A stretch of DNA of 64,000 nt from Natrarchaeobius oligotrophus (GTDB lineage: Archaea; Halobacteriota; Halobacteria; Halobacteriales; Natrialbaceae), in the NCBI RefSeq assembly GCF_003841465.1, contig NZ_REFZ01000016.1, forward strand, positions 1 to 64,000. Reading direction: 5' to 3'. A program made the position numbers and the translations under genes. Position 1 is the stretch's first letter. Each line of letters starts with the position of its first letter. This document shows positions 530 through 33,284 of the stretch, one piece after another. The notes below the pieces were generated by a model. That model had not been told where the DNA came from and did not search any database. It was given only the letters and a program-made list of their open reading frames with translations.

Positions 530-576
530 AAGCCTAGGCCGGGATTTGAACCCGGGCTCTCGTCCTTACCAAGGAC
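530..576 (-). repeat. Left attachment site (partial tRNA-Thr)
   Basis: These 47 bp are identical to 33212-33258. They cover the anticodon loop, the 3' side of the anticodon stem, the variable loop, T-arm, 3' acceptor strand and discriminator of tRNA-Thr. Identity stops after the sequence matching CCTTGGTAAGG of the anticodon arm, and the 5' half of a tRNA is absent, so this is an att remnant and not a gene. Confidence 0.93.
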
Positions 577-2403: not shown

Positions 2404-3063
2404 ATGGATGTCAGTACGCTGAAGACGTTGAAAGACGAGTACCCGACGTCCAGCTGGGCGCTATGGAGTTCGGAGTTTCCGAACGAGGGTTGTGTTGAAG
2501 AGGACCCTGCGGAGTTCTTCGAGTTCATCAACGAAAACCACGACCGTCTACGACCGTCGGTCGTCTTGCTCTCGCTGAACCCCTCTACCAAGTTGCCATC
2601 CGACTATCAGAATTTCCATTCGACGGAGCCGAAGCATCGGAACGATCAGTTTCGAGACCACGTTGAGGCGACCGAGCTTGAGGGTGCGTACATGACCGAT
2701 CTGGTTGAGCGGATCGTCGATGCGGATTCGGGCAACATTGACCCAATAGCGGATGACGTCGAGAACCTTTTCGATCAGCTTGACCTCCTCGATCAGGATA
2801 CCTACTACGTCCTTTGTTTTCACGAGAAGGTGTTCCAGACGTTGTTAGAGTTCTGTGATTCGAGACAACGAGAACTCGAACACGACATCAGGGCCTTCCG
2901 AGCCGTCCACGACGGATTTCAGCTGGAGTGTTACCGCGTCTGGTTCCACGCCAACTGGGGGGCGAATCGGGATAAAATCTACGCGTTACGGGAGCAACTG
3001 ACGTTCTTGAGTTCGCAGGTGATTGGTGGGGAAATCGCAGACCTCTCGCGGTGGATCGACTGA
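2404..3063 (+). CDS. Hypothetical protein, possibly uracil-DNA-glycosylase-superfamily-like
   Basis: A 219-residue protein read away from the nuclease pair. A hydrophobic strand followed by LSLNPS (about residues 56-61) and a later GAYMTDLV (about 93-100) resemble the spacing seen in uracil-DNA-glycosylase-like folds, where a strand-NP motif is followed by a short nucleotide-binding loop. A C-terminal WFHANWG segment (about 181-187) could supply another catalytic histidine. The similarity is weak and read by eye; the gene could equally be an unrelated alpha/beta protein. It stands alone with about 170 bp of non-coding DNA upstream. Confidence 0.4.
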   Translation: MDVSTLKTLKDEYPTSSWALWSSEFPNEGCVEEDPAEFFEFINENHDRLRPSVVLLSLNPSTKLPSDYQNFHSTEPKHRNDQFRDHVEATELEGAYMTDLVERIVDADSGNIDPIADDVENLFDQLDLLDQDTYYVLCFHEKVFQTLLEFCDSRQRELEHDIRAFRAVHDGFQLECYRVWFHANWGANRDKIYALREQLTFLSSQVIGGEIADLSRWID

Positions 3064-3259
3064 TCGTTTCCCGCCCCGGGACTGAGATCACCAACCTACC
3101 TTAACAAGGAATCAATATGGAGGAGTTGGTGATCTTTCGCTACCGTCGATTACTGGTTTGCTGACCCGGGCTGGAGATGGAAGCTGCGACCGAGCCCCGA
3201 TAATGACAGCATCGTCAGATTCTCCTATCAAACAAAGTCGCACAACTCTTCTGACGTCG

Positions 3260-4210
3260 CTATTCTGATTCTTTCTCGTATCGTTTAATGAGGAACGTGA
3301 GGAACGCAGAGGTCTGGTGAAGCAAAAGAAGACAATAGTCTTGATCAACTTCATCGTGCCAGCTTTTCCGATCTCCGGTTTTTTGTACGCCGGTACGAAG
3401 ACCACCCATTATTTGTTGCCACTCACCCACCATCGACTGGTTCGGCTCGAACAGTCCTTCCTTGTTTAACCGGTCAAGATAGGTCCCGACGGTCTGTGTT
3501 TCGTTTTCCCACCCTTGCTCCACACACATCTTCTGAACGACAGCCTCCACACTGTTGTAGAGCTTTTCAGCGATTATGGCAGAGAACTGACCGTCCTGAT
3601 ACTTATTCCATGCTTCGTTGTAGCCGCTCAATGGCTCTTTCCATTTCGTACCTTTCGTCAAGACTCGAAGATCCTGATCCGCCTGAACAATAGTTTCATC
3701 CGCGAGCTTTTCGAAGTGAAGGGGTTCATACCGATTAGGGTCATAACGTCTGGGCCGGGTTTTGCGAACACCACCTTCGACACGCGAACGATGAAGGTAC
3801 TTGTGATCTGGTCGTAATCTGAAGAGAATCCGGTGCTCACGAAGCACTCGACGGAGTTTACTGTCCATCTTTAACAAGTCCTCCTCGGAGTGATTACGAT
3901 TCGACCAAAGCGTGTTGAGCAGGATTTCCAGATAGAGAAGCACCTCATCGGTGTCTTCTTCCTTGATTAGGTGTGTCTGAGATGCCCTTGCTGGATCGAA
4001 ATTTCGCCACCGAAAATAGTCTGGCTCCTCTATGACTTCTGTTCGATATTCCATATACGTCTCATACACATCGTCATACGCAACTACATTTTCAAGAATC
4101 CGTGCAATCCGGTTTCGAGCAGGCTCAGTGAGATGCGGATGTACTCGGGGCTCTATCTCCTCATCACGCTTACCCCACGGAGTGAAATCACGATCAAATC
4201 CCCATGTCAT
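3260..4210 (-). CDS. AbiJ-like putative abortive-infection protein (HEPN-like C-terminus)
   Basis: A 316-residue single gene. The N-terminal half is helical and charged. From about residue 205 it resembles the C-terminal domain of AbiJ and related HEPN-fold proteins: helix KLYNSVEAVVQKMC, a loop VGTYLDRLN, then GGLRTGVQ and RKSWHDEV before a final hydrophobic helix. Proteins of this class are linked to RNA cleavage and growth arrest on virus infection. The RKSWH stretch may be a variant of the HEPN R-x(4-6)-H motif, but it is one residue short of the canonical spacing, so activity is uncertain. Its place among other defence genes supports the role. Confidence 0.5.
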   Translation of the reverse strand: MTWGFDRDFTPWGKRDEEIEPRVHPHLTEPARNRIARILENVVAYDDVYETYMEYRTEVIEEPDYFRWRNFDPARASQTHLIKEEDTDEVLLYLEILLNTLWSNRNHSEEDLLKMDSKLRRVLREHRILFRLRPDHKYLHRSRVEGGVRKTRPRRYDPNRYEPLHFEKLADETIVQADQDLRVLTKGTKWKEPLSGYNEAWNKYQDGQFSAIIAEKLYNSVEAVVQKMCVEQGWENETQTVGTYLDRLNKEGLFEPNQSMVGEWQQIMGGLRTGVQKTGDRKSWHDEVDQDYCLLLLHQTSAFLTFLIKRYEKESE

Positions 4211-4287
4211 CAGATGTATGGAGGTTTGATCGATTCAGACATTACACTTACGCCAGCTTTCATCCCCTCACCGGTTGATCTTCTATT

Positions 4288-4713
4288 ATGGAGATCGGGC
4301 TCGTGAGCTGTACGAAGAGCAAGCGTGAGCAAGCCGCAAAGCCCGCTGACCTCTATATGCCGTCGACGTTCTTCAGCAAGGCGCGTGAGTACGTCGAAGC
4401 CAATCACGACCGCTGGTACATCCTCTCCGCGAAACACCACCTGCTCGATCCGTCAGGCCCGCCTATCGAGCCCTACGATGAAACGCTGACGGGTGCACCG
4501 GTTGCCCGGAAACGTGAGTGGGCTGAAACCGTGTACGGCCAACTCGAAGCGGAAGGCATAGTTGATGACGACAACCAACTCGTCTTTCACGCAGGACGCG
4601 ACTACTACAGCGAACTCATCCCATTGTTGGAGGATACACCGGTCGACGTTGAAACCCCGACTGACGGCCTCCAGTTCGGTGAGACGCTCGCGTGGTACAA
4701 CGAACATCTCTGA
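4288..4713 (+). CDS. DUF6884 family protein
   Basis: A 141-residue protein that I recognise as DUF6884. It has an N-terminal GLVSCTKSK strand-loop, an ADLYMPSTFFSKAREY helix, then the signature WYILSAKHHLLDP and EPYDETL. The family is widespread in archaea, phages and mobile elements and its biochemical activity is unsettled. The N-terminal SCTKSK loop recalls the domain found in archaeosine-synthesis proteins. It precedes a GIY-YIG gene by 41 nt on the same strand, so the two probably form an operon. A TGT/DpdA-like gene at the other end of the element raises the possibility of a base-modification role (inference). Confidence 0.75.
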   Translation: MEIGLVSCTKSKREQAAKPADLYMPSTFFSKAREYVEANHDRWYILSAKHHLLDPSGPPIEPYDETLTGAPVARKREWAETVYGQLEAEGIVDDDNQLVFHAGRDYYSELIPLLEDTPVDVETPTDGLQFGETLAWYNEHL

Positions 4714-4754
4714 GAACCCGGACGATTTTGTGCCCCAGCTTCGAACCAGGTGAT

Positions 4755-5465
4755 ATGTCACGTCGTTCGGATCTTGACAGACTATACGATCTTCTCGATC
4801 AGCTCGAAGCAAACGTCGGTGGGAAGCAACGGCTCAAAGATTGTACGGGCTATATGGACTGGCCAGTGCGTGGCGTATATTTCTTCTTTGCCGAGGATGG
4901 AACACGAGATTCGACTGATCAGCTTCGACTCACCCGGATCGGCACACATGCAGTGTCCTCGGGTTCGGGTACATCGTTGTGGAATCGACTTCGGACACAC
5001 CGCGGAGCGAACAGCGGGACCTACGAAGGCGGAGGGAATCACCGTGGCTCGGTCTTCCGCAAGCGTGTCGGAGAGGCGATGATCGAACGCAACGGTATTC
5101 ACGACGAGTATCCGCACTGGGGCGACGGCTCCAGCGCCGACCGAGAACGTCGACTTTCGGAGTTAGAACATGAACGTCGCGTAAGCGGGTATATCCGTGA
5201 CCTTCCCTTCCTATGGGTTGACGTCGACGACGATCCAAGCCCGCAGAGTGATCGGGCCTACATCGAGCGTAACGCGATCGCGCTGGTCAGCAACTACCGA
5301 AAGGATTCTCTCGACTCTCGGAGCGACGACTGGTTGGGGCGTGATAGTCCCCGTAGCGAGATCAACGACTCGGGCCTGTGGAACATCAACCACGTCGGAG
5401 AACAGTACGACACGGCGTTTCTGGACCGATTGGCTGATGCCTTAGAGGAAACCTCCGGCCTCTGA
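4755..5465 (+). CDS. GIY-YIG-like nuclease domain protein
   Basis: A 236-residue protein. The start is placed at ATG 4755, preceded by AGGTGAT; a longer frame would run back into DUF6884. Residues about 38-75 read RGVYFFF and, after a loop, RIGTHA followed by LWNRLRTHRG. This matches the GIY-YIG arrangement of two short motifs plus a following Arg-rich helix. A later ERNAIALVSNY (about 173-183) fits the segment carrying the conserved metal-binding Glu. The remainder is acidic and unfamiliar. Co-directional with the DUF6884 gene, it may cut or process modified or foreign DNA (inference). Confidence 0.6.
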   Translation: MSRRSDLDRLYDLLDQLEANVGGKQRLKDCTGYMDWPVRGVYFFFAEDGTRDSTDQLRLTRIGTHAVSSGSGTSLWNRLRTHRGANSGTYEGGGNHRGSVFRKRVGEAMIERNGIHDEYPHWGDGSSADRERRLSELEHERRVSGYIRDLPFLWVDVDDDPSPQSDRAYIERNAIALVSNYRKDSLDSRSDDWLGRDSPRSEINDSGLWNINHVGEQYDTAFLDRLADALEETSGL

Positions 5466-5517
5466 GCTAACTGTGATCTGGAGGATGCTCTGACCGTCGT
5501 AGTTTTCTCCGGGGTAG

Positions 5518-5535
5518 CTGTTGGCACGAACCGCG
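5518..5535 (+). repeat. Dispersed element repeat, copy 2
   Basis: CTGTTGGCACGAACCGCG lies in the 283-bp non-coding stretch after 5465. It is close to copy 1 but has one extra base before CCGCG. No gene is visible in the rest of this gap. Confidence 0.5.
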
Positions 5536-5808
5536 CAGAGATGTCTCTCAGTTTGTTGTGGATGGAGGATTGAAGATTAGGTCATTCAACCGGAGGCCGA
5601 CATACGCGATGAGCGCCAGGATGGTCGGGGGCGCTACGGCGACAGTTGCGAACACGACGCTGAGACAACCGGAAGTGAGTATTTCCTTTGCCAGTTTCCA
5701 GGAGTAGTTTCGCCGTCTTGGTATTGTAGCAATAGCTAATTCAAGAAGGTGGCCCTAGATGATTTCCCACCGCAGAAAATAACTGGTCCCCCAATTAACG
5801 TCTCTCCT

Positions 5809-7761
5809 ATGCCCCTCTCGTTGGACGAACTAAACTCTCATTTATTCAAATGTGCAGACATTATTCGCGATGCTATCGACCCAACCGATTACAAGGAGTA
5901 TATTCTTCCACTCGTCTATTACAAGACCATTTCCGACGAGTTCGAAAATCAGTATCAGGATAATATCGACGAGTACGGCAAGCAGATCGCTCGGGATCCC
6001 GACCTTTATGATGTTCCTGTTGTTCCCGAAGGACACACGTGGGACGATATTTGTGCAATAACCGACAACGTTGATAAAGCACTCAATGAAGCTTTTGAAG
6101 CACTAATCAAGAAGAATCCCGAGTTGGAAGGGGCCTTCAGGGTCGATTTTGTCAATGCAAACGGGCTCAATGATGACCGCTTGACCGAGCTGATGGATCA
6201 TCTAAATAAGTACGATTTTGATCGCACTTCGATACCGCCGGATCTACTTGGTGATGCTTTCAGAGACCTCATTCACCATTTCGCTGAGGAGGAAGGTAAG
6301 AGAGGAGGCCAGTTCTATACACCACCAGAGATCTCAAAATTGAGTATCGCACTTTTGAACGATTTCGAAGATGGAGACGAATTTCACGATCCGACCGTTG
6401 GATCCGCTGGTATGTTGGTTGATGCCGCCCGCTACTACCGTGAAGAACAAGATAAGGACCCCTCAGAACTCCGACTGACGGGCCAAGAGATCAACTTAGA
6501 TATTGCCGCCATTGCCCGCTTGAATCTCTCCATCCATGATCTAAACGATGAAATCGCCAGAGGGGATTCACTATTGGATCCCCAGTTCACTCAGAATGGC
6601 GAGTTGGAACGATTTGACTACGTCGTCTCCAATTTTCCTTTTTCAATGGATTGGCCGAAAGACGAACTTCGGAATGACCAGTATGAGCGTTTCAATTGGA
6701 GCGACAAACTCCCCCGCGCTGATCGCGGTGATTACGCTTTCATCATGCATATCGCCAAGCACCTGAAACGTCCTAATTTAGACGGAACAGGGGGAAAAGC
6801 GGCTATCATCATTCCTCATGGTGTCCTCTTTCGGAAGCATGAGATGGCGTATAGGAAATATATGCTTGAGCATGATCTTGTTGAGGCGATAATTGGCCTT
6901 CCAGAGAAATTGTTCCCAAACACGGCTATTCCTTCAGCAATTCTCGTTCTAAACACTGACAAGCCAACTGAGAAGGAAGGTGAAGTACAGTTCATTCACG
7001 CAGCAGATCCCGATTTCTATGAGGAGCGGAAGAGCCAGAATAAATTGACTGAGGATGGGATTGATAGAATCGTAAGCCTGGTTCAGGACAATGCGACGAG
7101 ATATTCGATAAGTAAGACTGCTCAAATCGAAGAAATACGAGAGAATGATTACAACCTCAACATTACATTTTATGTTGATGGGGTGGACTTCCGAGAAGGA
7201 CAGGCACTCAATCGAGGTCTGAGTAAGCTTGATGAAGTGTCATACGACGGTCAGCTGAATCTCAAGGCAAACTCAACGTTTGATGCGATTCTCGGGAGAG
7301 TGATCCAAAAGCTCGATAATACGGTCTTGGTTTTAGGAAATTACGAGGGTGCTCATAAAGCGGAGCTCGTACGGGTGAAACGTGCGTTGGAGGAAAGGGG
7401 ATATGAAGCCCATCTTTTCGAAGATCTCCCTGATTTCCCCGGCCAAGATCTGTCAGGTAGCGTCGCCACCGCAATGCGGCTGGTCGGTTTCTGCGTAATG
7501 GTGGACCGTCAAGCTTCAGGCCACATAGACGAGTATCGGCTTGCAGAAAAACAACGAACTATCCTCGCAAGGTTAGTTTCGAACGAAGGTGGTTCGACCC
7601 GTATGATCGGGGGATCCGAACACGTTGATGTGAATTATATCAAAACTTTTGAGTTTGGGCTTTACCCACAAGAGGTGCTTGACGAAGCAGTGGATTGGGC
7701 TGATCAGATGCAAGAGAAACGTGAGCAGGTGTATAGTGACTTGTATGAGTGGCGTGACTAA
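5809..7761 (+). CDS. Orphan HsdM-like N6-adenine methylase fused to a TIR-like domain
   Basis: A 650-residue protein. I place the start at ATG 5809 because the following LSLDELNSHLFKCADIIRD aligns with HsdM N-termini; a GTG at 5749 would add 20 residues. Residues about 5-480 form an HsdM-type N6-adenine methylase with helical N-terminus, FYTPPEI, motif I as DPTVGSAGML (residue 194 on) and motif IV as NFPF (residue 275 on). Residues about 500-650 are not part of HsdM. VLVLGNYEG, a helix, YEAHLFEDLP, FCVMVDRQASGHIDEYRLAEK form a Rossmann/TIR-like segment with a candidate catalytic Glu after SGHI. No hsdS or hsdR accompanies it; the next gene is convergent and belongs to another system. Either methylation or TIR-type nucleotide signalling could be its output. 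Confidence 0.7.
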   Translation: MPLSLDELNSHLFKCADIIRDAIDPTDYKEYILPLVYYKTISDEFENQYQDNIDEYGKQIARDPDLYDVPVVPEGHTWDDICAITDNVDKALNEAFEALIKKNPELEGAFRVDFVNANGLNDDRLTELMDHLNKYDFDRTSIPPDLLGDAFRDLIHHFAEEEGKRGGQFYTPPEISKLSIALLNDFEDGDEFHDPTVGSAGMLVDAARYYREEQDKDPSELRLTGQEINLDIAAIARLNLSIHDLNDEIARGDSLLDPQFTQNGELERFDYVVSNFPFSMDWPKDELRNDQYERFNWSDKLPRADRGDYAFIMHIAKHLKRPNLDGTGGKAAIIIPHGVLFRKHEMAYRKYMLEHDLVEAIIGLPEKLFPNTAIPSAILVLNTDKPTEKEGEVQFIHAADPDFYEERKSQNKLTEDGIDRIVSLVQDNATRYSISKTAQIEEIRENDYNLNITFYVDGVDFREGQALNRGLSKLDEVSYDGQLNLKANSTFDAILGRVIQKLDNTVLVLGNYEGAHKAELVRVKRALEERGYEAHLFEDLPDFPGQDLSGSVATAMRLVGFCVMVDRQASGHIDEYRLAEKQRTILARLVSNEGGSTRMIGGSEHVDVNYIKTFEFGLYPQEVLDEAVDWADQMQEKREQVYSDLYEWRD

Positions 7762-7857: not shown

Positions 7858-8601
7858 TTAGATAGCCAGAGAGTTCCCGTTCACCCTGAGCCATTCACGG
7901 CGATCCTCGTAATCCGGGATGAGAGCACCAACCGTGTTCCAGAACGCGCCAGAGTGTTCATTGTGTACTGAATGAGCCAACTCATGAGCGATGACGTAAT
8001 CTTGGATTCGAACGGGTGCTCGAATCAACCGCCAGTTGAGGCGAACGGTTCCTCTGTCGTATTCACCCCACCGGCCATCGATCTCCCCGACCCACACTGG
8101 CACGGCGTCAAGCCCCAACCTCGACTCAAAACGTGACACTCGGTCCGGGAGTTCTTCCTCCGCACGCTCAATAAACCAGTCGACGACCGCTTGGTGCTTT
8201 CGGCGAACGCTCACATCGTCTACATCCCCGTCGAACCGATGGACGCGAAGGGTGAACGTCTGCTCGTCAAACGATAACCTTGGTTCTGGGACATCTGCCT
8301 CAACAGCCTTCAATGGATACTGTCGCCCCCGATACTGGAGTTTCTCCCCGCTCATGTACTCCTTCGGATACGGCGGCCCTTCTTGCTCTTTGAGTCCGTA
8401 GAGTTTCTGAAGCAGCCACTCTTGGCGAGATTCAAGCACGTCCTCAACATCACCTACTGTCGCGGTCATCGGGGCTGTAACGGTCAACTCCAAGGACTTG
8501 TCGATTGACAAACCTATTGTCTCCCGATTTTCGGACCAATCGACCGTGTAGGGCACGACCGTCTGGCCGATATGATGCCGGCGCTGTAGGCGTTCGCTCA
8601 T
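7858..8601 (-). CDS. YgjP-like (M48/WLM-type) zinc metallopeptidase linked to type I R-M
   Basis: A 247-residue protein of the COG1451 type. The zinc motif HELAH lies at about residue 208 (IAHELAHSVHNEHS), with WGEYDRGTVRLNWRL shortly before, as in YgjP/SprT-like proteins. Its start overlaps the stop of hsdR by 4 nt, so it is the last gene of the hsdM-hsdS-hsdR operon. Such metallopeptidases often accompany type I restriction operons and may tune the restriction subunit by proteolysis. That role is suggested by context only. Confidence 0.85.
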   Translation of the reverse strand: MSERLQRRHHIGQTVVPYTVDWSENRETIGLSIDKSLELTVTAPMTATVGDVEDVLESRQEWLLQKLYGLKEQEGPPYPKEYMSGEKLQYRGRQYPLKAVEADVPEPRLSFDEQTFTLRVHRFDGDVDDVSVRRKHQAVVDWFIERAEEELPDRVSRFESRLGLDAVPVWVGEIDGRWGEYDRGTVRLNWRLIRAPVRIQDYVIAHELAHSVHNEHSGAFWNTVGALIPDYEDRREWLRVNGNSLAI

Positions 8602-11558
8602 TGGTAGTGATTCCGGGCCAGTTCGATAACGCGGTTGGTTAGCTCTTTCCGTTCATCACCCGAAATGTCGATTTCAGAGCGATACAACTCTCCTGTCACC
8701 TCCTTCCGCATCCGGTTCTGTAACTGTGTCTTCTCTTTCCATTCCACCTTGGTCACAAACTGCTCAACAGTCCCGACCAAATCAGCGGTGAGTTCGATGA
8801 GATTTTCCTCGCCAGCATCGTGCTCGTCCAGTACGTCCTCAACGGCGTGGTAGAACGAGAGATCGGTCTCGTCCCGGAGCCCTTTGTTCCGCGCCTGCTT
8901 GTCGCGGGAGCGAATCTCGTCCATCAGTGCCCGAAGCTCCTCAATGGTTTCACGCTCGTTGTATCGCCCTTCCCGGTACTTTTCAATGAGCTCTTCGAGC
9001 CGATCTCTGAGAGAACCGTACTGCACTGGATCTTCGTCGAATCGAACGTTGAGCTCGTGCTTGATTGCATTTTGCATCTCACTCGCCCGAGCTTCGTCGC
9101 TTTCTAAGCCTTCAAGTTTCGCGTCGTACTCGACTTCCTCCATAATCGAGACGGGTTCATCGTTCAGGACCTCGATGCCCCGAGACGTGATGTGGTCCTG
9201 AATCAACTCACGGACCTTTGCTCCCGCTCCTTCGAGGTTCATCGTCTCATCGCGGTACCGCTCCTTCGCCTTCCCGTAGATCGTGCTGAGCCGCTCCAGA
9301 TCCTCCCGGTAGGGGTTCGCCATCGGATCAGGGAGGACGACGTCCATCAGCTGTGAGAACCGCTTGAACGCGTTCTTGAACTCGATTCGGCGGTCGTCAG
9401 GTTCGAGCGACTGAACGCACTGCTCCACATCATCGAGATCGTCGAAGAACGAGACCGCTTTGCTGTGTGCCGCCTCAAGATCGGGCTGTTTGTCCTCGAC
9501 CGGCACCATCGCCCGCTCGACGTCCTTCGAGCTGAACATCGCGAGCGCCTCCTTCAACTCGTCCGAGACACCGTAGTAGTCGATGATGAGGCCATGGGTC
9601 TTCTCCTCGAACGGCCGGTTCACGCGGGCGATCGCCTGCAACAGGCTGTGCTCACGTAGCGGCTTATCGAGGTACATCACCTGAGCCACCGGCGCGTCGA
9701 AGCCTGTCAGGAGCATGTCACAGACGATGAGCAGCTCGACCTCGCCGTTCGGATCGATGAACGATTCCTTGTACTGGCTCTTCTCGGAGTCGCTGGGAGT
9801 CCACTTCTTGATGTGCTCAGGGTCGTTGTGCCCCTCAGAGACTATGACTCGTGACTCCGGGCCGTTCAGGTTGTCGAGGGTCTCTTTGTACCGAATCGCC
9901 GCCTCCTTGCTTGTAGTGACGACCATACCCTTGAACGGCTCAGGTACGTCGTTCTCGTAGTGTTCGATGATGTCCAGTGCGACCCGGTCGATGCGAGGTT
10001 GGGCCTCTGCGAGATCTTGCGTGCGGGCGTATCGCTTCTGGATCTCCGCTTTCTCCTCGTCGGTCTTGTCCGAGAAGATGCGATCGAACAGGCGGTCAAG
10101 CGTCTCACCTTCGAGATGGATGTCTGCAAGACGGCCCTGATACAGGATCTCGACCGTCGCGCCGTCCTCCAGCGACTGATCGATCGTGTACGTGTCGATG
10201 TAGTTCCCGAACGTCCGGCGGGTGTTGCGCTCGTCCTTCTCGATGGGCGTCCCAGTGAATCCCACGTAGAAGGCATTAGGAAGCGCCGTCCGCATGTTGT
10301 TCGCGAGCTCCTTATCCTGCGTCCGGTGGGCCTCGTCGGCCATCACGTAGACGTTCTCGTTCCGGGAGAGCACCGGGAAGTCCTCTTCGTCGTCCGTGGT
10401 CTGGAATTTGTGAATCAGCGTCGTGATCGTCTCGCCCGCGTCGTACGAGAGTCGGTCGCGGAGATCCTCGATGCTCTCGGCCTTTTTCGGATTGGGGAAG
10501 CCGCAGCGTTCGAACGTCGCATGTATCTGGTCGTTGAGTGCCCGGCGATCCGTAACCAACAGGAGTGTTGGATCGTCCTCGTTCCGGCGGAGCTTCAGCG
10601 CGAGAAAGAGCATTGTGAGCGACTTGCCCGAACCCTGGGTGTGCCAGACGACACCGCCCTGTGCCTCGCGCCGACCGCGTTTGTCGATTCGTTCGAGCGC
10701 CTTCCGAACAGCCCGGTACTGCTGATACCGAGCGACCATTTTGATCGCGCCGCTCTGTCGGTTCTCGAACACCGTGAAGTGCCGTAGCTGGTCGAGCAGG
10801 CGCGAGGGTTCAAACAGTGCATACAGCATCCGGTACTGATCCGGGAGGTAGCCGTCGAGGTCGAACAGCTCGATGAGTTCGTCGTCCTCTAGCGGATAGA
10901 CGTCTCGCCAGGGCTTGTACTGGTCTTTCGGCGTTCCGTACGTACCCATGACCGCGCCTTCCATCCAGGCGGCGACCGAGAACTGGTTGTATCGGAACAG
11001 CTCCTCGGCTCCCTCAGACTCACCGTCGCGTTCGTTCTGGTACCGGGTGAGCTGATCGAGCGCCTCCGAACGCGGCTCTGGGATCTGGGGACTCTTGCAC
11101 TCGACGACGCCGAGCGGGATGCCGTTGACGAACAGCACGATGTCGGGCTTGACGACCTCGACCGGCCCTGCAACACGGAACTGGTTGAGCGCGAAGAAGT
11201 CGTTGTTCTCGGGGTTCTCGTAGTCGATGTACTGAACTGTTTGGTGCTGCTTCCCGTGACCTCGATCCTGCTCGACGGAGATGTGTCGGACGAGCTTTTC
11301 ATGGATCTGCTCGTTCTCGTCCATCGTGCTCGTCCCGGCGACCTGTGTGATCTCGCGGACGGCCTTGTTCAGATTGTTCTCGTTGAGCCACGGGTTCAGG
11401 CGCTCAACTGCATTGCGAAGACGCGGTTTGAGTACAGCCGAGGACTCCGTCTCCCGAGGATCGCGCCAAGTGGACCGTTGCTGGTCGACGACCTCCCAAC
11501 CGAGTTGCTGGAGTGCGCCAAGGGCGGGCCGTTCGGACTCGGCGTACTCGTCAGGCAT
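8598..11558 (-). CDS. hsdR: Type I restriction enzyme, restriction/translocase subunit
   Basis: A 986-residue HsdR of normal length. The N-terminal nuclease shows VKPDIVLFV and GVVECKSPQ (about 138-157), the PD-(D/E)XK site. The SF2 motor follows with Walker A QGSGKS (about 307), DEAH as ADEAHRTQ (about 414), FTGTPIEKD (about 440) and QAIARVNRPF (about 655). The C-terminal 300 residues are helical and should contact the methylase. It starts 2 nt after the hsdS stop. With HsdM and HsdS it cuts DNA lacking the host methylation pattern after ATP-driven translocation. All motor and nuclease motifs look intact. Confidence 0.95.
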   Translation of the reverse strand: MPDEYAESERPALGALQQLGWEVVDQQRSTWRDPRETESSAVLKPRLRNAVERLNPWLNENNLNKAVREITQVAGTSTMDENEQIHEKLVRHISVEQDRGHGKQHQTVQYIDYENPENNDFFALNQFRVAGPVEVVKPDIVLFVNGIPLGVVECKSPQIPEPRSEALDQLTRYQNERDGESEGAEELFRYNQFSVAAWMEGAVMGTYGTPKDQYKPWRDVYPLEDDELIELFDLDGYLPDQYRMLYALFEPSRLLDQLRHFTVFENRQSGAIKMVARYQQYRAVRKALERIDKRGRREAQGGVVWHTQGSGKSLTMLFLALKLRRNEDDPTLLLVTDRRALNDQIHATFERCGFPNPKKAESIEDLRDRLSYDAGETITTLIHKFQTTDDEEDFPVLSRNENVYVMADEAHRTQDKELANNMRTALPNAFYVGFTGTPIEKDERNTRRTFGNYIDTYTIDQSLEDGATVEILYQGRLADIHLEGETLDRLFDRIFSDKTDEEKAEIQKRYARTQDLAEAQPRIDRVALDIIEHYENDVPEPFKGMVVTTSKEAAIRYKETLDNLNGPESRVIVSEGHNDPEHIKKWTPSDSEKSQYKESFIDPNGEVELLIVCDMLLTGFDAPVAQVMYLDKPLREHSLLQAIARVNRPFEEKTHGLIIDYYGVSDELKEALAMFSSKDVERAMVPVEDKQPDLEAAHSKAVSFFDDLDDVEQCVQSLEPDDRRIEFKNAFKRFSQLMDVVLPDPMANPYREDLERLSTIYGKAKERYRDETMNLEGAGAKVRELIQDHITSRGIEVLNDEPVSIMEEVEYDAKLEGLESDEARASEMQNAIKHELNVRFDEDPVQYGSLRDRLEELIEKYREGRYNERETIEELRALMDEIRSRDKQARNKGLRDETDLSFYHAVEDVLDEHDAGEENLIELTADLVGTVEQFVTKVEWKEKTQLQNRMRKEVTGELYRSEIDISGDERKELTNRVIELARNHYQ

Positions 11559-11560
11559 GA

Positions 11561-12883
11561 TTAGTCGACGGAGACGCGGACTTTGCCGGTGAGGAGGTCC
11601 TGCAGTAGACCTCGTTTGAGGTCTTGGAGGTGCTGTTTGTTTTCACGTTCAATTTCAATTTCTCTCTCCACTGTCGAAAGCACCTCCGAAATACGATCTT
11701 GCTCCGAAATCGGTGGGCATATGATTGGAATCTCTCGCAACTCCCCGATATTTAGTGAGGCACGAGTCGAGCCTGTACTGAAGACATCGATCAAATCCTG
11801 GTAAATTTTGGTGGAAAGACAGTATTTCAACCATCTCGCATCAAGGTCAGTGGTTGGAGTAACTCGTGCCAAATCACGAGAGATATTCGCTTCTCCTATT
11901 TCCTCATTCAATTGAACAATATTGCCGACGGTTCCCTTTACAGAAACGAGTACTTCTCCCCCTTGGAGCTGACTTCGGGAATATTCTTCGTGGAGATCAG
12001 GTGTGATTTTATGAATCGACTCTCTTTGTATCTCTCCTGTTTCGTCTACGTCTTCGATATTGAGTAGGGGGATCCCATCTTCATCATGTTTGCCTGGTTG
12101 GACAACGCCATAGCAAATGGGATAATCATCCTGATTTAGATCATCAAGATCGGATATCTCCCAATGTTCGGGAATCTGAACCTGAAATGGACCGAGTTGT
12201 GTCTCCTTCCGGCCACTATTAGGAATTAGCTCATCAAACAAATCCTGTAGAAGACCATCTCTAAGTGCTTTGGTTTCTTTAATGATCTCGTCTGTCTGCT
12301 GTATTTGCTCGTCGACCGTCGAGAGGATGTCAGCGATGCGGCGCTGTTCGGGAAGCGGCGGGAGTGGAACCTGTATTCCGCCTTTGAACACGTCGCTCGG
12401 AACCCGTTGTCGGCCGGTAGATCCCTCCATGAGGGAAATAGTGACTGAACGAAACTCGGGTAAGTTCGAGAGATAGTAGACAAACCGCTCGTCGGTTACA
12501 CCATCCCGGGGATGGAATACAAGAAACTCCGTAGAACCGGAGCCAACCTCCGTACCCAGATCTTCTATGAACGCAATCTTCCCGTTTTCAGTACACGGTG
12601 TGATTTTGGCGTAGACAGTATCTCCGTTCTTGAACCACGTCGTCGTACAGTCGTCTTTCTCCCGCTGAGTCCAGTATTCGATGGTCTGCTTTTCTTCATC
12701 AACAGCGTCCATTGGGAGGTAATCGAACGGGCCGTTATCGGGTTTCTCGTATTTCGGATTGAGCTCTATCGCCTCGTCGAAAGGCACGTTGTCCCACTCA
12801 TCCGGTATGGGAATCTCACGAGGACCGAGTTTGACGGTCTTGTAGCCTTCCCGGAGATCAGACTGTTCCAAGGCTTCACTCAT
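11561..12883 (-). CDS. hsdS: Type I restriction enzyme, specificity subunit
   Basis: A 440-residue HsdS with two target-recognition domains, each followed by a conserved helix. The first half ends in PLPPLPEQRRIADILSTVDEQI (about 175-196) and the second in CPPISEQDRISEVLSTVEREI (about 395-415). This two-fold repeat is diagnostic. Its start overlaps hsdM by 4 nt. Base usage in the recognition domains (11640-12300) is more A/T-rich than in hsdM and hsdR, as expected for a part exchanged by recombination. It determines the split target sequence, which cannot be read from the gene. Confidence 0.95.
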   Translation of the reverse strand: MSEALEQSDLREGYKTVKLGPREIPIPDEWDNVPFDEAIELNPKYEKPDNGPFDYLPMDAVDEEKQTIEYWTQREKDDCTTTWFKNGDTVYAKITPCTENGKIAFIEDLGTEVGSGSTEFLVFHPRDGVTDERFVYYLSNLPEFRSVTISLMEGSTGRQRVPSDVFKGGIQVPLPPLPEQRRIADILSTVDEQIQQTDEIIKETKALRDGLLQDLFDELIPNSGRKETQLGPFQVQIPEHWEISDLDDLNQDDYPICYGVVQPGKHDEDGIPLLNIEDVDETGEIQRESIHKITPDLHEEYSRSQLQGGEVLVSVKGTVGNIVQLNEEIGEANISRDLARVTPTTDLDARWLKYCLSTKIYQDLIDVFSTGSTRASLNIGELREIPIICPPISEQDRISEVLSTVEREIEIERENKQHLQDLKRGLLQDLLTGKVRVSVD

Positions 12884-14442
12884 CGGTACTCTAACTCCTC
12901 CATGTACTGCTGCAGTTCATCGTCCGTCTTCCGACGCCTCTCGGCCAGCCGATCCAACTCCTCTAACTTCGCGCTTACGTCGATCGGCTCCTCAGGCTCG
13001 GTCGTGTCGACGTAGCGCGGCACGTTCAGGTTCCAGTCGTTCTCCTCGATCTCCTCCAGCTCGACGAGCCGACTGTGATGATCTTCCTCGCGTCCCGTCT
13101 GGAACGTGTCGGCAAGGTACTCGACGCCCTCGTCCGTCAGTTGATTTTGATTCGAGAGTTCCTCGAATACTTGCACGCCGGACTCTCGAAGCGTCTGATC
13201 CTCGGCGTAGATGAACTGAACCTTGCTCTCGCGTTCCTCGGGCTTGTCCTTATTCAGAATGAGGATACAGCCCGGTGACGAGGTGTTGTAGAATAGGTTC
13301 TCCGGGAGTGCAATCACAGCCTCGATTAGATCGTCTTCCAGAATCGGCTTGCGAATCTTTTTCTCGGACCGCGAACGGAACAGGACGCCGTTGTCCATGA
13401 CGACGCCCGCCTTTCCGGTCTCGTTGAGCGAGGCGATCATGAGCTGAATCCACGCCCAGTCGCCACGATTCGACGGCGGGAGCCCGTATGGGAAGCGGTT
13501 GTACGGCTCGTTGTCCTCTACCCAGTCCTTGTTCCACTCCTTCTGGTTCCACATCGGGTTCGCGATGACCCGGTCAAAGACCTCCAGTTCATCGTGCTTG
13601 GTGACGCGCTTGGGGTCGGTGATGGTGTCGCCCTTCTCGATCTTCGCGTCGTAGAGCTCGTGGAGAAGGACGTTCATCTGACCGATGGCCCACGTGTTCA
13701 GGTTCTTCTCCTGGCCGTACAGCGAGATGTCTGTCATATCGCCGCCCGATTCACGGATGTGCTCGGCGGAGTAGATGAGCATCCCACCGGAGCCACAGCA
13801 GGGGTCATAGACGCGGTGGCCCGGCTCCGGATTCACGCACTTGACGATGAGACGGACGACCTCGCGCGGCGTGTAGAACTCGCCGCCCTTCTTGCCAGCA
13901 TCGTCGGCGAACTCGCGGATGAGGTATTCGTAGGCTCGTCCGAAGATGTCGGGGTCTTCGAGATCCTCGTTCCGATAGCGGTGCTTCGAGAAGTGCGAGA
14001 CGAGATCGGAGAGCAGTGAGTCGGGCAACCGCTCTTTGTCGTTAAAATCGACCGTAGTGAGTACGCGGTCGGCAATGGGATCGTTTTCATCTTCGACCGC
14101 CGCGAGCGCCTTGTTCAGCGCCGCACCAACGTCGGTCTCCTGTGCCTTGATGTGATCCCACCGAGCGCGTTCTGGTATCCAGAACTCTTCGTGGAGGTCT
14201 CGGTCGTCCCTGGCGGTCTCTACTGGAATCCCGAGTTCCTCGGCGACTTCTTCGGTCTCCTCCTCGAAGCGGTCGTTGGCCCGTTTGAGGAACAGCAGCC
14301 CGAAGATGTAGTTCTTGTAATCCGCCGAGTCGATGCTTCCCCGAAGTTTGTCCGCAGCCGCCCACAGATGTTTTTCGAGTGTAGGAAGTGTAAGTAGATC
14401 CGGTTCCGTTCCAGGTAGCGTAGCCTGGTCCTTTTCAGCCAT
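12880..14442 (-). CDS. hsdM: Type I restriction enzyme, N6-adenine methylase subunit
   Basis: A 520-residue HsdM of usual length. It has the helical N-terminus WAAADKLRGSIDSADYKNYI, the FYTPREVVRLIV segment (about 188), motif I DPCCGSGGML (about 213) and motif IV as NPMW (about 296). The last is a variant of NPPF/Y seen in other HsdM subgroups. It is the first gene of hsdM-hsdS-hsdR-metallopeptidase. A TATA-like sequence about 27 bp before the ATG implies leaderless transcription. It shares family but little close similarity with the orphan methylase at 5809, so the two are not a recent duplication. Confidence 0.95.
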   Translation of the reverse strand: MAEKDQATLPGTEPDLLTLPTLEKHLWAAADKLRGSIDSADYKNYIFGLLFLKRANDRFEEETEEVAEELGIPVETARDDRDLHEEFWIPERARWDHIKAQETDVGAALNKALAAVEDENDPIADRVLTTVDFNDKERLPDSLLSDLVSHFSKHRYRNEDLEDPDIFGRAYEYLIREFADDAGKKGGEFYTPREVVRLIVKCVNPEPGHRVYDPCCGSGGMLIYSAEHIRESGGDMTDISLYGQEKNLNTWAIGQMNVLLHELYDAKIEKGDTITDPKRVTKHDELEVFDRVIANPMWNQKEWNKDWVEDNEPYNRFPYGLPPSNRGDWAWIQLMIASLNETGKAGVVMDNGVLFRSRSEKKIRKPILEDDLIEAVIALPENLFYNTSSPGCILILNKDKPEERESKVQFIYAEDQTLRESGVQVFEELSNQNQLTDEGVEYLADTFQTGREEDHHSRLVELEEIEENDWNLNVPRYVDTTEPEEPIDVSAKLEELDRLAERRRKTDDELQQYMEELEYR

Positions 14443-28401: not shown

Positions 28402-29751
28402 ATGGTACTCGCTGACGATCAGCAACTCGTTCGAGCATGGGACGCGTTCGAGGATAACGACTACCGGATGAAAGACAGCCAAGGGGAGGTTGTGACGATG
28501 GAAGAAGCCGACCAACGGCGAGAAGATCGGCTCCCTGTTCTTCGTGAACTCATCGATGATTTTCTGGCTGGCGATCTTCCATTGAGTGAGTTTAAGTCAG
28601 AGATCGATGGCCAGAACAAGCGGTTCCCCTACTGGGGGTTCAAAGGGATGAACGGAATGATGTTCTTCAATATGGTCTACAGCTCGGCTGGGGAGGAACG
28701 CCAAGACGAGCTGGCCGAGCTTTTGCATAACCTCATCCAGCCACCCGCTGACCAAACCGAAGCGAAGGAAAAAATACGTTCGCTCGAAGGCTTTGTTGAA
28801 CGACTCCGAAACGAGGTTGATGACCTTCGTAAGGCACCGCGCCCTGGATCGATACCCTACTTCCTCTCCTACTTTTGGCAAGTCCACGCCCCTGACGAGT
28901 ATCCGATCTACTACACCTCGATGGTGAACGCGTTGTCCGACTTGGCGATCTGGGAACCGGAAGACGATCTCGCAGATAGCTATGCTTCTTTCTGGGAGCT
29001 TAACGAGGAACTCCGCAAAGCATTAGGAGAGCACACCGGTCGAGACATACATCTCTGGACTGTCGAGCACGTGTTCTGGTACTGGCAACAGCGCGACGAG
29101 TTCGACGACGAGCCCGAACCAGCTGGAGGAACGACACAGATGACTACCCTCCCCGACAGCTACATCCCGCCGATCGTCTCCATTCTCCCGGATCTGGCCG
29201 AAAACACCGATGAGATTCAAAGCGTCGTCGACGGGATAGGCCACTCGGTAGAAACGCTGTTCGAGAATCGGTTGGCGCGTGCGTTCCGGATGGTAGGGTT
29301 CGAAGTTGACGAGATGGGGCAAGGGAGTGGTCGTAATCCGGATGGCATCGCGAAGGACCATATGCACAACTACGCAATCATCTACGACGCGAAATCCCGT
29401 CGAAACGGCTACAGTATGGGAACGGGCGATGAACGGCAGTTTCAGGATTACATCAACCGTGAGGTTCCCTCGCTCCGAGCCCAAGGGTTCCGAAACATCT
29501 ACTTTGCCGTCATCTCCGGAGACTTCACGGATGATGAGCGTGACGCGATTCGGACACTCAAAATCAGCACCGACATCCAGGAAGTCCGTCTGATCGAAGT
29601 CGAGGCGCTACTGATCCTTCTGGAGAACCGACTTCGTGATCCAAGCTTTGGACTCGGCCCTGGCGATCTCGGCGGTCCTGGTGTTCAGGACTTCTTCGCA
29701 GAGAGCGGGGTTCTTACGGCTGCTGATGTCCGTGAAGAGCTCGGAGTATAG
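28402..29751 (+). CDS. FokI-type cleavage-domain nuclease with an N-terminal DNA-binding-like region
   Basis: A 449-residue protein. The C-terminal third contains GRNPDGIAKD (about 312-321) and YAIIYDAKSRRNGYSMG (about 327-343), then ERQFQDYI. This closely follows the FokI cleavage domain (PDG..., VDTKAYSGGYN, MQRYV), the PD...DxK active site. The N-terminal half has FPYWGFKGMNG, PYFLSYFWQVHAPDEYPIYY and VEHVFWYWQQR, resembling recognition modules of McrB-like or type IIG proteins. No methylase partner is adjacent. It may therefore cut modified DNA, work with one of the element's methylases, or act on its own; the sequence cannot decide. Confidence 0.75.
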   Translation: MVLADDQQLVRAWDAFEDNDYRMKDSQGEVVTMEEADQRREDRLPVLRELIDDFLAGDLPLSEFKSEIDGQNKRFPYWGFKGMNGMMFFNMVYSSAGEERQDELAELLHNLIQPPADQTEAKEKIRSLEGFVERLRNEVDDLRKAPRPGSIPYFLSYFWQVHAPDEYPIYYTSMVNALSDLAIWEPEDDLADSYASFWELNEELRKALGEHTGRDIHLWTVEHVFWYWQQRDEFDDEPEPAGGTTQMTTLPDSYIPPIVSILPDLAENTDEIQSVVDGIGHSVETLFENRLARAFRMVGFEVDEMGQGSGRNPDGIAKDHMHNYAIIYDAKSRRNGYSMGTGDERQFQDYINREVPSLRAQGFRNIYFAVISGDFTDDERDAIRTLKISTDIQEVRLIEVEALLILLENRLRDPSFGLGPGDLGGPGVQDFFAESGVLTAADVREELGV

Positions 29752-31858: not shown

Positions 31859-33058
31859 CTACCAGATCTGTTCGGCGGCGTCGTTACGGGTTTCAGCGTC
31901 GGAGTGAAGATATTTCATCGTCGTTGTGACCGACTTGTGACGGAGCTGCTCTTTCGCGTGGTGTGGGCCGATGTGGTTCGCCCAGTAGGTCGCAACCCCA
32001 TGCCGGATCGAGTACCAGGTAATATCCTTGTGATCAGGGATAGGAAGGTCGCCCTGCTCAACGAGGCGGCTCAGTAGATAGTTACACGACTTGGAACTGT
32101 ACTTGCTTCCTTGCTTCGTAAGCCACAGTTCGTCTCGACCGTTGTACTTGTCGTAGGTTGCTCGTTCCTCTAACCATCGTTTGAGGACCCTTGACGTGCG
32201 CTTCTTGATGGAACAGTTCCAGTGCGCCTCGTTCTTCGTGGACTCGTCCTTGGGTATGTTGAGCTCGTTGTTCTCAAGATTGACCCAGTCCGTGGTGGCT
32301 CGCCCCACTTCGATGGGACGGAGTCCAGTATCCAGCGTCACAGCGATTATCGACGGCTCCTTCCACGAGTTCGCCTGTTCGAAGTGTTCGGGACCAACCT
32401 CCGACTTGGGCACGCCGAGACGCTGTGAAACATGGGTTTTCAACCGATCACGCTCCTCGGCGGACATATTGCTGTTGTAGCTCTTGACCGAGTTGTATTC
32501 CAATGCCGCCTGATAGAGCGGCTTGAACGCGGTTCTACGGAGATAATCCCGTTCGTCACCAGTCGCCTGACTCAGTTCGGGTTTCGGCTCCCAGTCGTAG
32601 TCGGTTCCGTGGATATGGTTCTGGTACTTGAACAGTCGCTGAACCGCTTTCCCGTAGTGAATCACGCTGGAATCGGCCATCCCGTCTGAGCGATTGAGGA
32701 GACGGATGAAGCGGTCAGCGTGATCCGGTGTGAAGTCTGTCGTGTAGGCGTCTTCGTCCTCCCAAAGCCATCGGAAGACGATTTCCAGCTTGTAGTGTGT
32801 CGACTGAAGAGTGCTCTCTGCGAGGCCCTGCCCCTTCTCTGGGTGCTTACCGTATGTGGCGAGCCACGAGAGAAGATCTTTTTTGAAGTCCCGGTAGTCG
32901 TCGACCATATTGAGCCCGTAGTTTTCGAGGTCCTCGCGTGAGCGTTCACTAGCAAGGGGAAAGTCGAACTCAACTTGTTCTGGAGCCGGGGGAAGACCAT
33001 CCCGCGGAGTGCCGTCCCCGGAGGGGAGATTGTCGAGCGGATCGGGTTGGTTGGTCAT
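31859..33058 (-). CDS. int: Tyrosine-recombinase integrase of the element
   Basis: A 399-residue integrase started at ATG 33058. A SAM-like N-terminal core-binding region (about 60-170) precedes the catalytic domain: LDTGLRPIEVGR with the first Arg (about 257), WYSIRHGVATYW (about 352) with the second Arg, QLRHKSVTTTMKYLH (about 372-386) with His and the nucleophilic Tyr. The box-II His position is occupied by Tyr, a tolerated variant in archaeal integrases. It lies 154 bp from the tRNA-Thr target on the same strand, as usual for tRNA-integrating elements. Confidence 0.93.
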   Translation of the reverse strand: MTNQPDPLDNLPSGDGTPRDGLPPAPEQVEFDFPLASERSREDLENYGLNMVDDYRDFKKDLLSWLATYGKHPEKGQGLAESTLQSTHYKLEIVFRWLWEDEDAYTTDFTPDHADRFIRLLNRSDGMADSSVIHYGKAVQRLFKYQNHIHGTDYDWEPKPELSQATGDERDYLRRTAFKPLYQAALEYNSVKSYNSNMSAEERDRLKTHVSQRLGVPKSEVGPEHFEQANSWKEPSIIAVTLDTGLRPIEVGRATTDWVNLENNELNIPKDESTKNEAHWNCSIKKRTSRVLKRWLEERATYDKYNGRDELWLTKQGSKYSSKSCNYLLSRLVEQGDLPIPDHKDITWYSIRHGVATYWANHIGPHHAKEQLRHKSVTTTMKYLHSDAETRNDAAEQIW

Positions 33059-33211
33059 CCGCGCGCACCCCGTTTTGTTTGTGTGCCATGACACTTTTCA
33101 GAATCGCAAGACTGCGCGGCTATCGGGTTGTAGTTTTTTCGGACGTTATTGGACATCGTTGGTCTCTCCTGAGAAGGGCGAAATCAGTCGAGAGAGACGC
33201 TAAGGCCGCTG

Positions 33212-33258
33212 AAGCCTAGGCCGGGATTTGAACCCGGGCTCTCGTCCTTACCAAGGAC
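33212..33258 (-). repeat. Right attachment site within tRNA-Thr
   Basis: The 47 bp identical to 530-576 form the 3' portion of the intact tRNA-Thr gene. Crossover occurred within this block, so the element supplies the present 3' half of the tRNA. Confidence 0.93.
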
Positions 33259-33284
33259 GCGCTTTACCGCTAAGCTACCCAGGC
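33213..33284 (-). tRNA. tRNA-Thr(GGT), integration target
   Basis: 72 nt. Acceptor GCCTGGG pairs with CCTAGGC. The anticodon arm is CGTCC-TTGGTAA-GGACG, anticodon GGT. The T-arm is CCGGG-TTCAAAT-CCCGG and the discriminator is T. The gene is intact although the integrated element ends inside it. Confidence 0.96.

Follow-up and report, generated by a model that had tools for sequence, protein, structure and literature searches.

A recurrent haloarchaeal fusion of an HsdM-type methylase core with a mobile C-terminal domain suggests a single-protein immune sensor

Whether an HsdM-type methylase that ends in a domain of another kind still belongs to a type I restriction-modification (RM) system is the question raised by one gene in the 64,000-nucleotide stretch of Natrarchaeobius oligotrophus DNA analysed here (contig NZ_REFZ01000016.1, positions 1 to 64,000; hereafter the window). 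A preliminary description had proposed a compact DNA-sensing defence protein, in which the methylase is joined to a separate Rossmann/TIR-like tail and has neither HsdS nor HsdR adjacent. Chance alone does not explain the fusion, and it seems to be undescribed, since no paper found in the literature searched describes it; its recurrence as a lone gene in other haloarchaea suggests an undescribed single-protein immune sensor. The features discussed below are collected in Table 1.

Table 1. Positions of the fusion gene, its parts and the surrounding features in the window
Feature	Position	Strand	Evidence
HsdM-effector-like fusion gene, 650 aa	5809..7761	+	ORF, Pfam, homology, dN/dS 0.12 vs pHGLR3 copy
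HsdM_N domain, residues 8-132	5830..6204	+	PF12161 E 2e-22
N6_Mtase domain, residues 145-461	6241..7191	+	PF02384 E 4e-79; pLDDT ~90
SAM-binding motif I DPTVGSAGML, residues 194-203	6388..6417	+	sequence, alignment
Catalytic motif IV NFPF, residues 275-278	6631..6642	+	alignment; PacII M1 pocket roles
Junction/linker, residues 458-489, at the position of the HsdS-docking tail of canonical HsdM	7180..7275	+	tail profile, similarity crossover
C-terminal effector-like domain, residues 490-650, modular, TIR-like on weak evidence	7276..7758	+	
Glu575 codon (SGHIDEY)	7531..7533	+	alignment of 21 domains
YgjP-like metallopeptidase of cassette	7858..8601	-	PF01863 E 6e-44
HsdR of cassette	8598..11558	-	
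HsdS of cassette	11561..12883	-	32% identical to pHGLR3 copy
Canonical HsdM of cassette	12880..14442	-	docking tail present
47-bp copy of tRNA-Thr 3' end, attachment site	530..576		
Matching 47-bp attachment site inside tRNA-Thr (33213-33284 -)	33212..33258		
Island tyrosine integrase	31859..33094	-	PF00589 E 1e-15

The gene is one unbroken open frame of 650 residues. Its ATG at 5809 is backed by the annotated start of the corresponding fusion in plasmid pHGLR3 of Haloferax gibbonsii LR2-5 and agrees with the point at which nucleotide homology between the window and the plasmid begins (5808); an alternative in-frame GTG upstream, at 5749, is less likely. The two copies are 90% identical with a dN/dS of 0.12: the gene is genuine and unbroken, and purifying selection acts on it. 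Its product has a two-part layout, in which residues 3-457 are HsdM and residues from about 490 to 650 form a distinct domain. A full-length AlphaFold model, computed with an alignment of 15 canonical HsdM relatives, reached a pLDDT of about 90 over residues 1-457, while most of residues 459-620 stayed below 50. Together with the two Pfam matches and the DPTVGSAGML and NFPF motifs, the high score of the first part confirmed the HsdM-type assignment made earlier. The closest solved relatives of this half are the PacII methylase subunits M1 and M2 (PDB 7vru, E 1e-78).

The M subunits of PacII use their C-terminal tails to build a four-helix bundle with HsdS, and deletion of the tails abolishes M-M-S assembly (PMC9613975). 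A profile of this HsdS-docking tail scored 12.8-60.9 bits in all 32 canonical HsdM proteins under leave-one-out conditions, and no more than 2 bits in any of the five fusions known to us (described below), so that the tail is absent from the whole set. Similarity to canonical HsdM ends sharply at residue ~455, and from there on the fusions continue with their common linker and the C-terminal domain. This shows that an HsdM core shed its HsdS-docking tail and acquired a mobile C-terminal domain in its place. Two carrier genomes (G276 and G281, 99% complete) encode no HsdS anywhere, and in both the fusion is the sole strong full-length N6_Mtase match, the other matches being partial or weak. Because these two genomes lack any HsdS, the fusion protein cannot need one, and the earlier proposal that it acts without HsdS was upheld for at least these two.

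The claim that no HsdS or HsdR is adjacent, in contrast, was not confirmed: a complete type I RM cassette begins 97 bp downstream of the fusion on the opposite strand (7858-14442). Its HsdS is paired with an HsdM of its own, which is canonical and retains the docking tail, and the fusion has no HsdS to itself. pHGLR3 repeats the arrangement, with HsdR and HsdM 95-96% identical to those of the window and HsdS only 32% identical. Across the five fusion loci, the same cassette adjoins the fusion in the window and in pHGLR3, lies ~7 kb off in genome G241, and is absent in the other two. A known partner HsdS close by in other genomes, which had been named in advance as grounds for doubting the proposal, was thus found as far as position is concerned (in Haloferax, and at ~7 kb in G241), but this HsdS comes with a separate HsdM, and the fusion lacks a tail with which to dock. 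Two of the four fusion genomes carry the cassette, compared with 16 of 391 genomes (post hoc hypergeometric P about 0.009). Natronosalvus has the cassette but no fusion, and so do 14 of the 16 cassette genomes. The association agrees with a free HsdM serving as bait but is not obligatory. A different arrangement was seen in Halorussus, where two different HsdM genes flank HsdS and are followed by HsdR and YgjP (L004, 6971-14945); with its NFPF and NFPY motifs, this locus is a possible archaeal M1-M2-S type I system, comparable with the m6A/m4C type of PacII.

We searched a profile of the C-terminal domain against 391 genomes of the class and found three further HsdM fusions (genomes G241, G276 and G281; loci L108-L110), whereas two families that we went on to search (146 and 125 genomes) yielded no additional one. 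The fusion, sought elsewhere as the preliminary description had suggested, is therefore recurrent, with five members, all intact, in four haloarchaeal genomes and on one Haloferax plasmid. L109 and L110 are 91% identical though their hosts belong to different families; therefore, the fusion gene moves horizontally, and the 90% identity between the window and the Haloferax plasmid points the same way. Their dN/dS is 0.19, so that both close pairs are under purifying selection, and by part it is 0.04 for the C-terminal domain and 0.39 for HsdM_N. Between diverged members, identity is 59-69% in the C-terminal domain, 43-46% in the MTase domain and about 31% in HsdM_N, and the linker is common to the window and L108 (43.6% identity). 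In the HsdM tree, the HsdM part of the fusion groups in a haloarchaeal clade with L005 and L080, which are canonical operon members (support 99/100), and stands well apart from the HsdM of the neighbouring cassette (38-40% identity). The five group together without support (69/10), which is compatible with one or two fusion origins or with replacement of the HsdM half. Around L108-L110, ~10 kb were scanned; apart from the RM cassette near L108, there were no obvious defence neighbours. No nuclease is fused to the protein, and none is conserved beside it in these three loci.

The methylase half differs between members at the residues that hold the target base. In PacII M1 the base pocket consists of F171, N276 and F279 (PMC9613975). 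Judged from sequence, the fusions of the window and pHGLR3 keep both the pocket Phe (GGQF in the GGxF loop) and NFPF, whereas in three of the five members NFPF has become DFPV or DFPI: L108 has DFPV and an Asn in place of the pocket Phe, and L109 and L110 have DFPI. The SAM motif DPTVG is present in all five. The three members that lost pocket residues have long HsdM branches in the tree, and HsdM_N is the fastest-evolving region (31-33% identity between diverged members). The methylase half is thus degenerating in part of the family. A mutated pocket beside a kept SAM motif is more in keeping with a sensor that binds a ligand than with a methylase, while the copies of the window and pHGLR3, in which NFPF is intact, may methylate DNA.

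The second half is a module in its own right. It forms the C-terminus behind at least five different N-termini, including proteins without a methylase: it closes a family of 356-363-residue proteins (L111, L112 and L119), a zinc-ribbon-like protein encoded next to a Schlafen/AlbA gene (L120), a 228-residue protein (L121) and, on two Priestia plasmids, the product of the fourth gene in a DUF2326 operon (L106 and L107), and it extends the large subunit of carbamoyl-phosphate synthase (CarB) throughout genus g77 and in g102 and g103. A more distant haloarchaeal family matches it at E values of 4e-4 to 1e-6. The domain has a motif of its own, VLGxY ... DRxxSGHxxEY ... STxMIGxxE. In an alignment of 21 domains, E575 is the single residue identical throughout; this is the Glu of SGHIDEY that the preliminary description had singled out. 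The CarB copies keep this Glu, while the conserved G510, G571 and H572 are changed in them. The family to which the domain belongs shares this one invariant Glu and extends across archaea and Bacillota; the copy here bears no Pfam name.

Several of the loci that carry the domain deserve a record of their own. The gene directly upstream of the zinc-ribbon-like carrier (L120, 9353-11800) combines Schlafen/AlbA_2 with a weak GIY-YIG match. On the Priestia megaterium plasmids, the four genes of the DUF2326 ATPase operon occupy 2492-6438 (L106) and 2513-6471 (L107). In the carB carriers (L113-L118 and L125-L145, in G313, G340, G254, G214 and others), a core metabolic enzyme bears a module of the immune type.

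As for the kinship of this domain, the earlier description was right that a separate tail exists, here a distinct domain of ~160 residues conserved in unrelated proteins; its TIR label was not confirmed. Pfam TIR_2 scored 14.5 bits against the domain (E 0.05), below its cut-off of 28, and no match to TIR_2, TIR or ThsB_TIR exceeded the Pfam curated cut-off. For comparison, we built TIR profiles from haloarchaeal genomes. E575 falls on the catalytic-Glu column of the TIR profiles with the alignment in register, at an hhalign probability of 4% at best; in two of three TIR sets the profile scores beat 41 of 41 shuffled controls, again at a probability of no more than 4%. A single-sequence AlphaFold model of residues 489-650 showed alternating strands and helices in TIR-like order, but with a pLDDT of 41, and a Foldseek search with this model returned no match; the full-length model has helices in this region (pLDDT <50), unlike the strand-helix order of the single-sequence model. 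A search of PDB sequences with the domain profile gave only designed-repeat and chance matches. Kinship with nucleoside deoxyribosyltransferases was also considered and rejected, the profile score being no better than that of shuffles. A TIR assignment is plausible from this weak similarity but unproven, and we treat the "TIR-like" label as a lead.

The fusion and the cassette lie in a 32.7-kb integrative island (530-33258), which has a GC content of 0.545 compared with 0.662 outside and holds several restriction or candidate-defence genes, including a NucS-like PDC-S11 gene and a PD-(D/E)XK PDC-S26 gene. A protein with a FokI-like cleavage domain is encoded at 28402-29751 (PF09254, E 4e-6). 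Directly upstream of the fusion, an overlapping pair of DUF6884 (PDC-M57A) and PDC-M57B genes (4288-5465) forms a PADLOC candidate defence system; an operon of this pair with the fusion was rejected, given a gap of 343 bp and different upstream genes in pHGLR3. The defence setting proposed earlier is supported by this island, while DNA sensing is one option among several, since a bait that attracts anti-restriction proteins, or a sensor of S-adenosylmethionine, fits equally.

We tentatively favour, at somewhat less than even confidence, a stand-alone immune receptor in a single protein, made of a retired type I methylase subunit and a nucleotide-acting C-terminal effector. The HsdM half, with its SAM motif kept, would be the sensor, most probably as bait for anti-restriction factors such as the DNA mimics Ocr and ArdA or SAM-degrading enzymes; alternatively, it may respond directly to foreign DNA or to a loss of SAM. 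Ocr and ArdA attach to type I methylases, PacII among them, and block them; a free HsdM would be natural bait for such proteins. Once triggered, the C-terminal domain would be switched on and, through Glu575, might cleave or modify a nucleotide such as NAD+, so that the cell stops. This arrest is modelled on the guardians PrrC and PARIS, whose reply to an inhibitor of restriction is to arrest growth or kill the cell (PMC12707154). The fuller version, in which an HsdS-free (pseudo-)methylase decoy or SAM/DNA sensor is coupled to a new effector family common to archaeal and bacterial conflict systems and co-opted by carbamoyl-phosphate synthase, is possible but more doubtful. Weak TIR evidence and unusable models of the domain count against the receptor, and the genus-wide presence of the domain on carbamoyl-phosphate synthase argues against an always-toxic enzyme, though G510, G571 and H572 are lost there. 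The intact NFPF of the window and pHGLR3 copies also counts against it, as does the absence of obvious defence neighbours, other than the cassette near L108, in the ~10 kb scanned around L108-L110.

Because an essential synthase carries the domain, the strongest rival holds that it is a nucleotide-binding regulator or sensor, which reads a metabolite and controls, without toxicity, whatever protein it is attached to, be it methylase, pseudo-methylase or carbamoyl-phosphate synthase. Across g77 and in g102/g103, the domain is a fixed C-terminal part of an allosterically regulated enzyme of nucleotide synthesis, and its TIR similarity is weak, both as such a regulator would have it; however, the altered CarB copies may be a derived inactive form, and other copies stand with conflict-system genes (the DUF2326 operon and the Schlafen/AlbA gene) and in a defence island. 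On balance we think this regulator rather unlikely.

The remaining explanations are less probable still. A solitary DNA methylase, in which the C-terminal domain serves targeting or oligomerisation in HsdS's stead for a type II-like modification, would account for the SAM motif and NFPF kept in the window and pHGLR3, yet pocket residues are gone in three members, the domain occurs on proteins without any methylase and no nuclease is fused or conserved alongside in L108-L110; we regard it as improbable. Much the same, with slightly greater reserve, applies to the view of the fusion as an alternative M subunit, acting in trans with HsdS from the neighbouring cassette and bringing a new activity to its recognition sites. 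The proximity of the same cassette at three loci, the post hoc co-occurrence and the intact NFPF of the window would suit such a subunit, whereas the tail missing from all five members, the separate clade and low identity of its HsdM part, the two carrier genomes without HsdS and the many cassettes without the fusion all weigh against it. Finally, recombination in a type I operon could have left an accidental fusion or a decaying pseudogene, as the sharp crossover at residue ~455 and the recombination-rich island might suggest. An accident was largely ruled out by the conserved, diverged intact copies, which are spread across families with dN/dS of 0.12 and 0.19, and the linker common to the window and L108 argues likewise; we judge this origin extremely improbable.

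The methylase core of type I systems is a preferred target of viral DNA mimics. Should the immune-receptor reading be true, archaea would have in this fusion an equivalent of the integrated decoys found in plant immune receptors, and the guard idea would become directly testable within a single protein.

Compared with known systems, the fusion resembles type I HsdM (PacII M1/M2, 7vru) in the order of domains and in the motifs across residues 3-457, but it lacks the HsdS-docking tail, has an extra C-terminal domain and no obligatory HsdS or HsdR, and is degenerate at the pocket in three of five members. Its resemblance to the TIR immune NADases (Thoeris ThsB, SpbK) would lie in the order of strands and helices predicted by a single low-confidence model and in where the invariant Glu sits, whereas its domain stays below the Pfam TIR cut-off, has its own motif and gives no confident fold match. 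The MADS methyltransferase MAD2 (NF047738) is likewise an HsdM-like methylase in a defence setting, but the fusion scores far below the MAD2 cut-off (56.5 bits against 720), and no MADS operon was seen beside the gene. The DUF2326 operon of Priestia megaterium has a fourth gene that ends in the same C-terminal domain (HMM 66-73 bits), although it is a multi-gene ATPase system without a methylase and its domain is 23-25% identical to that of the window. PrrC (with EcoPrrI) and PARIS would be similar in principle if the HsdM half is bait, since there inhibition of restriction triggers the effector (PMC12707154), and at three of five loci the fusion stands beside or near the same type I cassette; unlike them, it would hold bait and effector in one polypeptide, with a candidate effector unrelated to the anticodon nuclease PrrC.
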